Shown piece by piece: positions 992 to 9,108 of a stretch of 17,340 bases of DNA (its first letter is position 1; every line of letters starts with the position of its first letter). The notes below the pieces were generated by a model. The model saw nothing but the letters and a program-made list of their open reading frames with translations, did not search any database and was not told where the DNA came from. Made by a program: the position numbers and the translations under genes. Where the stretch lies: NCBI GenBank assembly GCA_002313255.1, contig DCBA01000139.1, positions 4,559 to 21,898 on the forward strand, read 5' to 3'. Origin of the DNA: Gammaproteobacteria bacterium UBA1119. GTDB lineage: Bacteria > Pseudomonadota > Gammaproteobacteria > Pseudomonadales > Azotimanducaceae.

Positions 992-2452
992 TCAGGTCGA
1001 CTTAGCGAAAGACGGCGGCGCAACGAATCCGCCGATCTCTTCGCCGATCAGTCGGGCAAAGGCGATGGTTCGGTGATCACGATACGGAGCGCTTGCTGCT
1101 TGGAGACCGATGGGTAAACCGTCCTTCGAAGGTCCGGTAGGAAACACCGTGCTTGGTAAGTACGGGTTGGTGATCAATCCTGCCCAGAATAGCTGGGTGA
1201 AATAGTCTTGCTCGTTGCCATCGACATCAATGGTGCGTTCACCAAAAGGTCGATGGTCGTGAGGAAACGCAGGAACCGCCATTTGGGGACAAACGAGGAT
1301 GTCCCAATCCTGAAAAAATTCGACCCACGCATACCTCAATCGTTCTCGGACAACGTTGTGACGTAACCAATGACCATGGGGAAGTACGCGGGCACGGTAT
1401 TCCACCGCGGCCCGTGACATGTCGTTGGGATCTAAAGAATCGGCGAAGTCCCGCGCACGAGCATATTCGTCATCCGCCATGCCGGCCGACATGACCGAAG
1501 TGAGTAGGCTTTGGTAGGCGATGTGAGCGCGCTTGATATCGAAATTGGGCCTAGCGGTTTCGGACACGCGTCCACCTAACCGTTCAACTGCCTCACCCAC
1601 CATGGCGACTCGCGACTGGGTTTCCGCCGAGACGGGTGCAAGGTCGTCGCTCGGCCATAGTGCGACTCGCACACCTTTGAGCGACGTAATGTCGGACGGC
1701 GGTAGATTTAACGTCCAACCGACCGCTTCCCGTTGTACGGGTCCTGCCATAATGTCGAGCGCGGTCGCCAGATCCTCGGCGCTGCGCGCGAGTGGTCCGC
1801 ACACCGCGAGATCCGGTTCGGGGGTATTTTCAGCGAGTTCGTGACCTTGCATGGGGATGATCCCCCACGTGGGCTTATGGCCGTAGATGCCGCAAAAGTG
1901 GGCTGGGTTTCGAATGGAGCTGCCGATATCGGAACCGGCTTCCAGGGCAGTGAAACCGGCCGCCAGCGCGGCCGCGCTGCCACCCGATGAGCCTCCCGGC
2001 GTGCGTGTTGGATCCCAAGGATTTCCCGTTGTGCCGTAGATGGGGTTGTAACTTTGAAAGTCGGCAAGACTCACCGGCACATTGGTTTTACCAAGAAAGT
2101 GTGCGCCGGCGGATTTAAACCGTTGGACCGCGAGTCCATCTTTTGTTGGCTTATTGTTGCGAAAATCTTCAAGGCCCCAAGTGGTCGGCGTGTCGGCAAT
2201 GACGTAGGACTCCTTGATGGTCATGGGGACGCCGTGCAATGGGCCGAGGTTCTCGCCTCGTGCCAGCGCGGCGTCCGCGTTGCGGGCGTCGTCAAGGGCG
2301 CGATCGAATATACGCACCACTACCGCGTTGATTTCTCCATCACGTTGTTCGATTCGATCGATATAGAGTTCGGTGAGCTCAAGTGAGCTGAACGTCTTCT
2401 TTTGAATACCCTTCGCCAAGTCTGTGGCCGATTGAAATGCGAGATCACTCAT
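992..2452 (-). CDS. Amidase (amidase-signature family)
   Basis: Hydrolyses a carboxamide by the Ser-cisSer-Lys mechanism of the amidase-signature superfamily. The protein is 486 aa, normal for the family. The triad is visible: Lys80 in MTIKES, cis-Ser155 in PGGSSGGSA, and nucleophile Ser179 in GSDIGSSIRNPA, followed by FCGIYGHKPTWG, which is typical of the fold. The usual glycine just before the nucleophile is serine here (GSS in place of GGS), a variation in the oxyanion strand. I chose the ATG at 2450-2452 (MSDLAFQ) because GGGAGAGAAGGA lies just upstream on the coding strand; an upstream in-frame ATG at 2506 lacks support. No signal peptide, so cytosolic. Followed by the MFS transporter on the same strand and divergent from the aldo/keto reductase. 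The family includes enzymes acting on many amides and carbamates, so the substrate is unknown. Confidence 0.92.
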   Translation of the reverse strand: MSDLAFQSATDLAKGIQKKTFSSLELTELYIDRIEQRDGEINAVVVRIFDRALDDARNADAALARGENLGPLHGVPMTIKESYVIADTPTTWGLEDFRNNKPTKDGLAVQRFKSAGAHFLGKTNVPVSLADFQSYNPIYGTTGNPWDPTRTPGGSSGGSAAALAAGFTALEAGSDIGSSIRNPAHFCGIYGHKPTWGIIPMQGHELAENTPEPDLAVCGPLARSAEDLATALDIMAGPVQREAVGWTLNLPPSDITSLKGVRVALWPSDDLAPVSAETQSRVAMVGEAVERLGGRVSETARPNFDIKRAHIAYQSLLTSVMSAGMADDEYARARDFADSLDPNDMSRAAVEYRARVLPHGHWLRHNVVRERLRYAWVEFFQDWDILVCPQMAVPAFPHDHRPFGERTIDVDGNEQDYFTQLFWAGLITNPYLPSTVFPTGPSKDGLPIGLQAASAPYRDHRTIAFARLIGEEIGGFVAPPSFAKST

Positions 2453-2599
2453 GTCCTTCTCTCCCTTTTGTTGGCGTTTCATCATTGTCCGGATCGATGC
2501 CCACACTACTCGGTGTTTTGTTAATTAGCGTATCGAAACGTATGGTTGTCGAAACGGCCATGCGATTGCCGACCCAGAGAATAAACGAGAGAGCTTGGA
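2453..2599. promoter_or_regulatory. Divergent control region, amidase / aldo-keto reductase
   Basis: This 147-nt gap separates the start codons of two divergent genes, so it must hold promoters for both unless one is read from elsewhere. A direct repeat of TCGAAACG occurs at 2533-2540 and 2549-2556 (start-to-start 16 nt). A moderate sigma70-like candidate for the rightward genes is TTGTTA at 2518-2523, then 17 nt, then TATGGT at 2541-2546, which lies between the two repeat copies. A regulator binding these repeats would cover the -10 element. This is motif reading only. Confidence 0.35.
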
Positions 2600-3607
2600 A
2601 TGGAACAGCGGAAATTTGGCAACACGGATTTACAGTCATCGGTCGTCGGCTTCGGCACTTGGGAGATGGGGACAACTCAGTACGGTGACATCGATATCAA
2701 ACAAGCCGTGCGTGCGGTCGAAATGGCAGTTGATCACGGCATCACGTTGTTTGATACGGCGGAAGTGTACGGGCCATTCACTTCGGAAGAGTTACTTGCG
2801 CGAGGTCTAGGAGAGCGTCGAAAAGATATTGTGTTGGTAACCAAGGTAGGTTTTACCTATCACGACGATGCGGATCGACGGGGCAACGCCGCCGTTGTCG
2901 GTCGAGATGCTTCTGCCGATAGTGTCACGCAACATACGGAAGCATGCCTGCGCCGCCTGCGCAGCGATTACGTGGATTTGATGCTGATTCACTGGCCTGA
3001 TCACAAGACTCCGCACGAGGAGACGGTGGAGGCGCTGGAGTCGCTTAAGCAGGCCGGCAAGATTCGTCATTATGGTGTTTCGAATTACAACGTCGAGATG
3101 ATGGCCGCGTGCCAATCCCACGGAACTTTGGCGGCGAATCAGGTCGGTTATCACATGTTCGACCGGCGGATGGAAGCCGAGGTTCTTCCGTATTGTCAGC
3201 GAGAGGGCATTGGTTACATGGCGTACGGTAGCTTGGGTTTTGGTCTTCTTACTGGGGCAATGTCCCCCGATACGGAGTTTGTCGATTGGGATTGGCGGAG
3301 CAGCGGTAAAGCGTTTGGACTCCCACTTTTTGAAAAGGAACACTTCGAGAAAGAACTTCGTGTGGTTGAACGATTGCGTGCCTTCGCCGCCGATCACGGT
3401 CGTTCGGTACCGCAGTTGGCGATTGCATGGCTCCTGGGGAACGAAGCTGTGACAGTCGGCCTCGTGGGGATGCGTAATGAGCAAGAACTCGTGGAGAACG
3501 TGGCAGCCGCCGACTGGCGGCTAACGGCATCCGAGCGCGAGGAGATGGATTCGTTTTTTACCGAGGAAGACGTGCCGACGTACATTGATGCTGAGCAGGC
3601 AACCTGA
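2600..3607 (+). CDS. Aldo/keto reductase
   Basis: NAD(P)H-dependent reductase with the AKR (beta/alpha)8 barrel, interconverting carbonyls and alcohols in the cytosol. The protein is 335 aa, usual for the family. The catalytic tetrad is complete: Asp52 and Tyr57 in FDTAEVYG, Lys82 in VTKVG, and His131 in LIHWPD. The barrel-end cofactor region is recognisable in GLVGMRNEQELVENVAA near residues 287-303. VDLMLIHWPD and KIRHYGVSNY are standard AKR signatures. The ATG at 2600 follows a weak purine stretch (cgagagag) and the protein begins exactly where AKR domains do (MEQRKFGNTDLQSSVVGFGT). The sulfatase begins 65 nt downstream on the same strand, so the two are likely one transcript. The substrate is unknown; context suggests a catabolic step linked to the amidase and sulfatase (inference). 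Confidence 0.93.
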   Translation: MEQRKFGNTDLQSSVVGFGTWEMGTTQYGDIDIKQAVRAVEMAVDHGITLFDTAEVYGPFTSEELLARGLGERRKDIVLVTKVGFTYHDDADRRGNAAVVGRDASADSVTQHTEACLRRLRSDYVDLMLIHWPDHKTPHEETVEALESLKQAGKIRHYGVSNYNVEMMAACQSHGTLAANQVGYHMFDRRMEAEVLPYCQREGIGYMAYGSLGFGLLTGAMSPDTEFVDWDWRSSGKAFGLPLFEKEHFEKELRVVERLRAFAADHGRSVPQLAIAWLLGNEAVTVGLVGMRNEQELVENVAAADWRLTASEREEMDSFFTEEDVPTYIDAEQAT

Positions 3608-5166: not shown

Positions 5167-5706
5167 ATGAGTGAATCGCAAGCAGAAGGCATGACGGCGT
5201 ACGCGGAACGATTGGTGGGTCTCGCCGTTGAGTACGGCCCGTTCGTCGTTGGTGCAATCGTCGTGCTTATTGTCGGCCTTTGGATTGCGAATCGTGTCGC
5301 GAAGGCTGTCCAAGGCGTGATGGAAGCCAAAGAACTGACTCCGTCCATTGTGGGATTTCTAACAAATATATTCCGTATCTAATTGAAAAAACTAATAATA
5401 ATTAGCGTAGCGTCGATGGTCGGAATCGAGACGACATCGTTTATCGCAGTCCTTGGTGCTGCCGGTTTAGCGATTGGACTGGCGCTTCAAGGAGGTCTTT
5501 CTAACTTCGCGGGTGGGGTTTTGATTGTTATTTTTCAGTACTACAAGGTCGGTGATGACATCAAAACGCAGGGCATTTCTGGAAAGGTAACCGAGATTCA
5601 CCCGTTCTATACCAAGCTCGTAACAGAGGATGCGAAAGAAGTCATTCTTCCGAATGGTCGGGTTTCGAATGGCATCATTACGCGACAGCCTCGGCGTGGA
5701 GCGTAG
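5167..5706 (+). pseudogene. Small MscS-family channel gene interrupted by in-frame TAA
   Basis: Encodes the core of a small-conductance mechanosensitive channel. Codons 1-71 give an N-terminal membrane helix (about residues 24-41). Codon 72 is TAA (5380-5382). The same frame then continues with the MscS pore helix and beta domain: [51 protein letters not shown]. Spacing between the FL and LK pairs flanking the stop matches intact relatives with one residue replaced, so this is a single nonsense codon and not a frameshift (TTA, Leu, to TAA would suffice). The end is also early: after [13 protein letters not shown] it stops, without the usual C-terminal alpha/beta domain. TTG directly follows the stop (TAATTG), so coupled re-initiation at 5383 is conceivable, but no ribosome site supports it. 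It could be a decaying gene, a sequencing error or a split channel. Confidence 0.75.
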
Positions 5707-8114: not shown

Positions 8115-8215
8115 TTCCCCCTTCCAAAAGATGCGGCTTCGGAGCCTCATTGCCACCAAGCGTATAACGCGCGTTGGTGTAGTATCCATCCTTAATGATT
8201 TTGGAGGACGTCGAT
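8115..8215. other. Intergenic region with two hairpins upstream of the selenoprotein
   Basis: Two inverted repeats lie here. At 8131-8150, ATG-c-GGCT pairs with AGCC-t-CAT around TCGG (seven pairs, one mismatch). At 8155-8178, ACCAA/TTGGT encloses GCG-TATAA-CGC with three unpaired bases. Neither has a T tract, so they are not textbook terminators. TATAAC at 8163-8168 could be a -10 element, but I find no good -35 at the right distance. GGAGGA at 8203-8208 is the ribosome-binding site of the next gene. Confidence 0.35.
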
Positions 8216-8737
8216 TTGAAGCTACGGAGAATCGGATTATATTTTGCGACCTTGTTGTTTGGCGCAACAACGTCGGCGGCGCCGGAAGTGGGCGACTTGG
8301 CCCCTGATTGGACACTGCCGGGATCGGATGGAAACGAATATCGTCTTTCAGACCTTTTGGGGAAACACGTGGTGATCGCGTTTTTCCCTAAAGCTTATAC
8401 CAGCGGCTGAACTCTCGAATGCAAGGCGCTGCGTGACAGCGACCGAGAAATTCGTCAGTACGATGTCGTTTATTTCATGGTAAGCACGGACTCGATCGAA
8501 GACAACCGAGGGTTTGCGGAGAAGAATCGAGCAAGTTTCCCGATCCTCTCGGATCCGAGTAAAGAGATGTGCGAGGCCTATGGGGTGCTGTACCCGATTG
8601 GGATGGCTAAACGATGGACCTTTTATATCGACGCGGAAGGCGTTATCCAAAAAATTGATCGTATGGTTAAACCGCTGACCGCGGGAACGAGCTTGGTTCA
8701 GAATCTAGAAGAGCTGGGCATTCCGCGAGTGCTGTAG
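8216..8737 (+). CDS. Exported peroxiredoxin (Bcp/AhpC-TSA type), probable selenoprotein with Sec65 encoded by TGA
   Basis: Thiol/selenol peroxidase of the AhpC/TSA-redoxin family, 173 aa including selenocysteine. The frame is open from 8216 to 8737 except for TGA at 8408-8410 (codon 65). Peroxiredoxin sequence runs through it: [27 protein letters not shown], then the TGA, then [38 protein letters not shown]. The TGA replaces the peroxidatic Cys of the family TPGCT motif (Cys45 of E. coli Bcp). A SECIS-like hairpin lies at 8413-8448. Start is TTG at 8216, with GGAGGA (8203-8208) 7 nt upstream; an in-frame ATG at 8195 would put that site inside the gene. From TTG the product opens with a signal peptide (MKLRR, hydrophobic core, TTSA/AP), so it should act in the periplasm. 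Other cysteines are Cys69 and Cys119. A plain nonsense mutation is the alternative, made unlikely by the position and the hairpin. Confidence 0.85.
8408..8410 (+). other. TGA recoded as selenocysteine
   Basis: In-frame TGA between GGC (Gly64) and ACT (Thr66), at the catalytic residue of the peroxiredoxin active-site loop. The reading frame continues for 108 further sense codons that match the family. Confidence 0.82.
8413..8448 (+). promoter_or_regulatory. Bacterial SECIS-like hairpin
   Basis: An upper stem CGCTG (8427-8431) / CAGCG (8437-8441) closes a 5-nt loop CGTGA (8432-8436) with G at its second position. GG (8425-8426) pairs with CC (8443-8444) across a bulged A8442, and a lower stem TCTC (8413-8416) / GAGA (8445-8448) is separated by an 8-nt bulge. 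Twenty-one bases lie between the TGA and the apical loop. A short apical loop with G in the first two positions, about 16-37 nt after the UGA, is the published general pattern for bacterial SECIS recognised by SelB. Confidence 0.65.
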
Positions 8738-8763
8738 CACGGTAAGGGTTCTCGTCTCTCGGC

Positions 8764-9108
8764 ATGAAAAACTTTGCATACGTCACGATGATTGCGTTTC
8801 TTGGGACGGCAACCTTGTGGAACATTCGGGTGTCAGCAGAGGTGACGTTTGGGGTGGGCAACGCTGCAAACTGCGACGAAGTCGCTCGCGAAATCAGTCG
8901 AAATTGGTTTGACGTAAAACACATTTTTTCTGAAGGCGTTGGTAGCAAACGACCGCGTCCGAAGGATTTTCAGTGTATTTCTTCACAGTACATGTACAAC
9001 TTGCTCCCTCGACCGATACCGGCACTCTCCAATAAGTTGATTTGTTTCAAGGAAAGAGAGATCGCTGCATGCTGTGATCCTCAGATGCGCGTGTGTGCGA
9101 CCCTTTGA
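8764..9108 (+). CDS. Exported small six-cysteine protein, unknown family
   Basis: I do not recognise this 114-aa protein. It opens with a signal peptide (MKNFAYVTMIAFLG, hydrophobic core, likely cut at VSA/EV near residue 24). The mature part has six cysteines: Cys37, Cys71, Cys94, the adjacent pair Cys103-Cys104, and Cys111. An even number in an exported protein fits disulfide bonding. The C-terminal third (KLICFKEREIAACCDPQMRVC) is densest in cysteine and could form a small knot or metal site. It starts 26 nt after the peroxiredoxin stop on the same strand with only a weak purine site (aaggg) upstream, suggesting co-transcription. A redox partner or reductant of the selenoperoxiredoxin is possible but is inference from position and cysteine content alone. 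Confidence 0.7.
   Translation: MKNFAYVTMIAFLGTATLWNIRVSAEVTFGVGNAANCDEVAREISRNWFDVKHIFSEGVGSKRPRPKDFQCISSQYMYNLLPRPIPALSNKLICFKEREIAACCDPQMRVCATL

Follow-up and report, generated by a model that had tools for sequence, protein, structure and literature searches.

Does the in-frame TGA of a peroxiredoxin-like gene in this DNA end the protein, or does it encode selenocysteine? Within the window, by which we mean the whole analyzed stretch of 17,340 nucleotides, positions 8216 to 8737 form a single frame that is open except for the TGA at 8408-8410 and terminates with the TAG at 8735-8737. Numbering from the TTG at 8216, the TGA is residue 65. The original prediction had proposed an exported selenoperoxiredoxin at this locus. 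The analysis of the sequence, its relatives and its predicted structure makes it very likely that the gene does encode an exported peroxiredoxin with selenocysteine (Sec), with the following features.

8203..8207, + strand: Shine-Dalgarno-like GGAGG, 8 nt before TTG 8216 (sequence reading)
8216..8737, + strand: predicted exported selenoperoxiredoxin (PrxQ/Bcp-like), 173 residues, Sec at 65 (frame, Pfam/NCBIfam, relatives, AlphaFold, Foldseek)
8216..8281, + strand: predicted signal peptide, about residues 1-22, cleavage site guessed (hydropathy of 100 members; low pLDDT of residues 1-20)
8387..8410, + strand: catalytic motif P-KAY-T-SG-Sec, PxxxTxxU (frame; motif described in the consulted part of PMC13188914)
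8408..8410, + strand: TGA predicted to be read as selenocysteine, U65, at the peroxidatic position (frame and relatives)
8420..8422, + strand: C69, proposed resolving Cys at U+4 (conservation; 3drn alignment)
8427..8441, + strand: SECIS-like hairpin with a 5-bp stem and the loop CGUGA at 8432-8436, 21 nt after UGA (folding and codon conservation)
8612..8614, + strand: R133, conserved Arg (invariant in alignments A1 and A4)

TTG is a plausible start, because GGAGG precedes it at a distance of 8 nt and the in-frame ATG of position 8195 is not Met throughout the genus: two of its members, L020 and L021, have Asp and Val, respectively, at this codon. Met is kept in L022. The Pfam model AhpC-TSA matched residues 25-146 with 110.1 bits (cut-off 26), on both sides of the TGA, and Redoxin matched residues 25-153 with 71.5 bits. 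PDB matches aligned straight through the TGA position. The claim of one frame running through the TGA with peroxiredoxin sequence on either side was thus borne out. The best NCBIfam model was that of the Bcp family, NF006960, and since its 85.8 bits lie under the cut-off of 140, the protein appears PrxQ/Bcp-like yet is outside NF006960 by the curators' rule. Membership of NF040737 (peroxi_PrxU) failed as well (55.3 bits versus a cut-off of 270). The AlphaFold model had a mean pLDDT of 92.1, with residues 1-20 at 52-55. Foldseek returned Sulfolobus Bcp1 (3drn) as the top match and Bcp chains at E about 1e-16; ranks 1-5 were titled Bcp1, ACKA-BCP, Bcp1, Bcp4 and BcpB, and ranks 6-7 were Burkholderia alkyl hydroperoxide reductase. 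The active site reads P58-K-A-Y-T62-S-G-U65. P58, T62 and R133 are invariant in alignment A4, and we take R133 to be the likely active-site Arg of peroxiredoxins. With the PxxxTxxU motif, and with Cys at the same codon in relatives, the TGA stands at the peroxidatic position, as had been proposed.

The original prediction had also called for a check of the same genome for selA, selB, selC and selD, and selA, selB, tRNA-Sec and selD were all present in this assembly (2.78 Mb, 139 contigs, 93.5% complete). At the end of contig C18, selA (2133-3470), selB (268-2115) and tRNA-Sec (93-182) follow in a row on one strand. The tRNA-Sec scored 69.2 bits (cut-off 47) and was found by ARAGORN too, and a profile search of the genome returned selA with 546.1 bits, selB with 403.7 bits and selD with 279.6 bits, all over cut-off. 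The selD gene lies on contig C86 inside a 731-residue frame whose first domain is a pyridine-nucleotide oxidoreductase; it resembles the Ndh-SelD fusion, which the consulted part of PMC2398784 describes as abundant in ocean samples. A second redoxin gene with an in-frame TGA was located on contig C37 (L170, 1378-2625). It encodes an AhpC-TSA domain with a W-U-PPC motif and, behind it in one chain, a DsbD_N domain, and is a second selenoprotein candidate; its predicted hairpin loop is GGC, not CGUGA.

A protein query against 97 genomes gave a strong match with TGA in 27 genomes (17 genus codes, one family code) and a strong match with Cys at the same codon in 21. The codon was read directly in all 27 TGA genes and was Cys in 21/21 of the others. 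Comparison of 26 TGA and 18 Cys distinct genes revealed a Sec/Cys pair among homologues; rows that share the 48 nt beginning at the codon count once in this set (L049 equals L041 there), and its pattern did not pick up the gene of G057 (L054, which on checking has TGA and the hairpin motif) or three Cys forms, L058, L064 and L066 (on checking, Cys at the codon and at +4). A scan of named-species genomes, a set that overlaps with the 97, covered the best 80 of 204 relatives and found TGA at 74 loci and Cys at six. The titles of these records (MAGs) include Gammaproteobacteria, Proteobacteria, Pseudomonadales, Pseudohongiella, SAR86, OM182 and K189A, and by our reading of the isolate names most of these relatives are marine. 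The first pattern used here required Cys at +4, as did the distinct-gene pattern, and missed L166, in which Gly replaces the motif Thr and both the TGA and the hairpin motif are present. The original prediction had named decay of the gene in relatives as a contrary sign, and the codon was either TGA or Cys in those read. One TGA relative, L035 (G026), has an in-frame TAA late in the gene besides the TGA. Some relatives also carry further peroxiredoxin genes with TGA at the peroxidatic position (L184-L191), which represent at least three other sequence types.

Few genomes of the class carry the gene: a search at E <= 1e-30 matched three of 274 genomes, namely the source genome and two without a stop in the match. 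Three changes between Sec and Cys were counted on a 101-row tree and four on a rooted 75-row tree (68 of the 101 members plus seven outgroups), with many forks open on either tree. Of the 27 TGA genomes, 24 gave a SelA match, which was over cut-off in 23; the remaining three genomes are 73-85% complete. SelA was also matched in 18/21 Cys genomes and in 17/49 genomes without a strong family member. SelB was over cut-off in 22/27 TGA genomes, the five without it (G002, G006, G022, G034 and G053) being 73-91% complete. SelA presence was associated with the TGA form (24/27 versus 35/70; Fisher test ignoring kinship, p = 4e-4). Sec is not obligatory, however, because the genomes with a Cys form mostly have SelA too.

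The strongest evidence comes from the RNA, just downstream of the TGA. Among the 69 conserved-residue columns of the 26 TGA genes, only four hold to a single codon; they stand side by side and encode A-L-R-D (GCG CTG CGT GAC) at +6 to +9; each of the other 65 columns uses two or more codons. The codons are GCG (23 genes) or TCG (3), followed by CTG, CGT and GAC (26 each) and then by AGC (12) or AGT (14). The 18 Cys genes vary at +6 to +9 in codon and often in residue. The fixed codons fold as CGCUG-CGUGA-CAGYG, each pair of which has a probability of at least 0.99 in the window, and the alternation between AGC and AGT preserves G-C or G-U pairing. The loop of this hairpin, CGUGA, begins 21 nt downstream of the UGA. 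The hairpin motif [G/T]CGCUGCGUGACAG[C/U] was present in 27/27 distinct TGA genes, and the full motif was present at 72/74 TGA loci of the named-genome set; of the two exceptions, L141 has an N inside the motif and L162 has TCT for TCG, which breaks one stem pair. R-D is also a protein motif, so that CGTGA is partly fixed by the protein, which does not, however, account for the use of CGT out of six Arg codons.

The limits given for bacterial SECIS elements (bSECIS) in the consulted part of PMC13188914 include loop size, stem length, a G among the first two loop bases, distance and a minimum free energy of -7.5. The hairpin of the window falls within them, with a 5-nt loop, a 5-bp stem, G at loop position 2, a spacing of 21 nt and an energy of -13.5 to -14.1 for the 47-50 nt from the UGA. 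In contrast to the bSECIS model, the hairpin sequence is almost unchanged among members of this family. The 15-nt hairpin alone gave -5.4 or -3.5 kcal/mol. Folding of the single sequence yielded z = -1.54, with 14 of 200 shuffles as good, and pair shuffles of the stem do not separate pairing from chance. No stem pair is altered on both sides, the only change being the one G-C/G-U alternation, and the case for a SECIS element therefore rests on the synonymous-codon constraint. A covariance model of the hairpin (R1), run against the source genome with E up to 10, recovered only the window gene among the 150 candidates scored (out of 1125); the second TGA redoxin of this genome therefore uses another hairpin. 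An Rfam scan of 8200-8740 returned no curated family for the hairpin, only a weak and irrelevant REN-SRE match (12.3 bits, minus strand). For L185 and L190, the fold program ranked another hairpin first.

Taken together, the selenocysteine machinery, the TGA and Cys forms among relatives and the constrained hairpin downstream uphold the proposal that the gene is a genuine selenoprotein, which on these sequence data is almost certain. Two other ways of reading the TGA have to be weighed against this. It could be a real stop in a decaying gene or a sequencing error; a mechanical ORF list indeed shows two ORFs, one closing with the TGA and the other opening with ATG 8477, and L035 does have a further in-frame TAA. 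However, the same TGA recurs in 27/97 genomes and at 74 of 80 named-genome loci (best 80 of 204) with the frame kept beyond it, which makes chance or error no sensible explanation, and the synonymous freeze is found only just after the TGA. We regard a real stop as extremely improbable. The same holds for a genetic code in which TGA means tryptophan (code 4 or 25), a reading suggested by database homologues with W at the Sec position (P0002; 6/78 rows of A4). These entries are probably gene calls made with another code, in which TGA was read as Trp. In the source genome, long frames on C18 and C86, including those of 946, 399 and 731 residues, end in TGA, and the genome has tRNA-Sec, selA, selB and selD; moreover, Cys occupies the position in 71/77 homologues of A4. 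With the TGA as a Sec codon, SelB would bind the CGUGA-loop hairpin and deliver Sec-tRNA to the UGA at 8408.

A hydrophobic N-terminus, scored as a 12-residue stretch with a mean hydropathy of 1.6 or more, was detected in 99 of the 100 members whose core is preceded by 20 residues or more (77/78 Sec forms and 22/22 Cys forms). The exception, L048 (G037), has a lipoprotein-like LSGC in its leader with a Leu run before it. The predicted export thus found support in hydropathy, and on that sole basis we consider the protein very probably exported, presumably via the general secretion route. As both Sec and Cys forms have the hydrophobic stretch, export would belong to the whole subfamily. The export of a Sec enzyme has precedents, an example being the formate dehydrogenase FdnG of E. 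coli.

Four residues after the Sec, C69 is Cys in 78/78 aligned proteins and in 93/93 distinct sequences matched, Sec and Cys forms alike; the count was made with a pattern without a requirement for Cys at +4, together with alignment A4 (P0002 left out), and this pattern missed nine loci (L047, L058, L086, L119, L125, L133, L149, L152 and L166). The resolving Cys of PrxQ proteins is at +5 (CXXXXC), absent or about 38 residues away, according to the consulted parts of PMC6590489 and PMC8945050 (section 22). The +5 spacing was not found here, position +5 being Lys in 93/93 distinct sequences. In the AlphaFold model, residue 65 and C69 share one helix (residues 63-74). We propose that the selenol of U65 would attack H2O2 or an organic peroxide and that C69, one helical turn away, would resolve the selenenic acid to give an intramolecular U65-C69 selenenylsulfide. 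A periplasmic thiol donor could then reduce the selenenylsulfide, perhaps fed by the DsbD_TM protein of contig C53, the one DsbD_TM match in the source genome. A reductant from the DsbD branch is a tentative suggestion.

C69 is probably the resolving residue. It could instead be structural, with the protein acting as a one-Sec peroxidase in which an external thiol reduces the selenenic acid directly; we consider this rather unlikely. The consulted section 22 of PMC8945050 describes PrxQ/Bcp proteins without a resolving Cys, one of them reduced directly by Trx or GSH/Grx, and in the same bacterial family some Sec-PrxQ genes (L184-L187, L190) have no Cys close to the Sec; the unbroken conservation of C69 and its place on the helix of residue 65 argue against a merely structural role. 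Far less probable is an exported thiol-disulfide oxidoreductase or metal-handling protein in place of a peroxidase. SCO1-type proteins, whose CxxxC has a metal role, provide the model for it. CxxxC is the active site of these Trx-fold proteins (PMC2757866, consulted part), but the PxxxTxxU motif and the conserved Arg speak against this assignment, as do the nearest solved relatives, which are Bcp/PrxQ by sequence and by fold. That the protein is a peroxidase is, on the same sequence data, highly probable.

The gene neighbors were compared at 24 loci. In G020 and G057, selA, selB and then the peroxiredoxin gene lie on one strand, and in G051 a short-chain dehydrogenase gene stands between the upstream selA-selB and the gene. 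Among the five same-genus genomes examined, neighbors are common to G000, G001, G002 and G006 and not to G004. Outside the genus the 24 loci have no general neighbor, some neighbors being common to a few genomes, and no reductant candidate was named among them. Reverse-strand ORFs that clustered in 14 genomes were rejected as shadows lying opposite the gene itself. Two genera share a four-gene block upstream of the gene (L068, 6916-11705, in G056; L085, 3599-8462, in G014), encoding MlaD, a CsgG/GNA1162-like protein, a protein without a family and DUF4384 (domains read on L068, DUF4384 also on L085). Directly after the gene, window positions 8764-9108 encode a small Cys-rich protein of 114 aa with a hydrophobic start, which is found in three genomes of the genus and has no Pfam or NCBIfam family. 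In another part of the window (5167-5706), an MscS-like channel gene is split by a TAA at 5380-5382; G001, G002 and G006, of the same genus, have one 179-residue frame at this locus.

The original prediction is silent on the second Cys at U+4, on the Sec and Cys forms over many genera and on the location behind selA-selB. A wider reading, which we put forward as doubtful in its entirety, would see a distinct exported peroxiredoxin subfamily of marine Pseudomonadales that detoxifies periplasmic peroxide by Sec, forms a selenenylsulfide in a one-helical-turn U-xxx-C arrangement, is reduced by a DsbD/CcdA-type route and not by thioredoxin, and has a near-fixed SECIS element. In this reading, the near letter-for-letter conservation of the hairpin and the occasional position of the gene behind selA-selB suggest that the enzyme is one of the main reasons why these bacteria keep selenocysteine. 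The findings suggest that, across a wide range of marine Gammaproteobacteria, peroxide is countered outside the cytoplasm by an enzyme that depends on selenium. Such an enzyme is easily missed, because its gene is cut in two by software for which TGA is a stop, and Trp seems to take the place of Sec in some database entries. At the DNA level, [GT]CGCTGCGTGACAG[CT], beginning 15 nt downstream of an in-frame TGA, can serve as a signature for the family.

PrxU of Eubacterium acidaminophilum is a Sec-containing peroxiredoxin with TxxU, and marine TxxU selenoperoxiredoxins have been on record since at least 2005. In the consulted parts of the surveys, Sec-containing peroxiredoxins with TxxU are the second most abundant family in the Sargasso Sea, with 43 genes (PMC1088965), and Sec-containing peroxiredoxins are among the abundant families in GOS, with 253 (PMC2398784). 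All of these proteins share with that of the window the Sec in the TxxU of an AhpC-TSA protein, and those of the two surveys are from marine bacteria. The available main texts of PMC1088965, PMC2398784, PMC1794560 and PMC13188914 do not contain the term "signal peptide," nor do those of the latter three contain "periplasm," and the UxxxC spacing does not appear in the available survey text of PMC1088965 or PMC2398784. The titles and abstract openings examined, mostly of open-access literature, named no exported, periplasmic or CxxxC/UxxxC selenoperoxiredoxin. The subfamily of the window may nevertheless sit among the Sargasso and GOS sequence sets. Closer at hand, the Sec-PrxQ genes L184-L190 of the same bacterial family have Sec at the same position and, like the window gene, CGTGA 21 nt after the TGA; they differ in that the core starts right after Met in most frames printed, with no leader seen, in their stem, and in the second Cys, which is at +5 in L188 and L189 and absent nearby in L184-L187 and L190, whereas it is at +4 in the window gene. 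Finally, the window protein resembles PrxQ/Bcp (NF006960; PDB 3drn, 2ywn/4g2e) in fold, PxxxTxxC-type active site and chain length, and is distinguished from it by a hydrophobic leader, by Sec at the position of the peroxidatic Cys and by a second Cys at +4, where PrxQ has it at +5.
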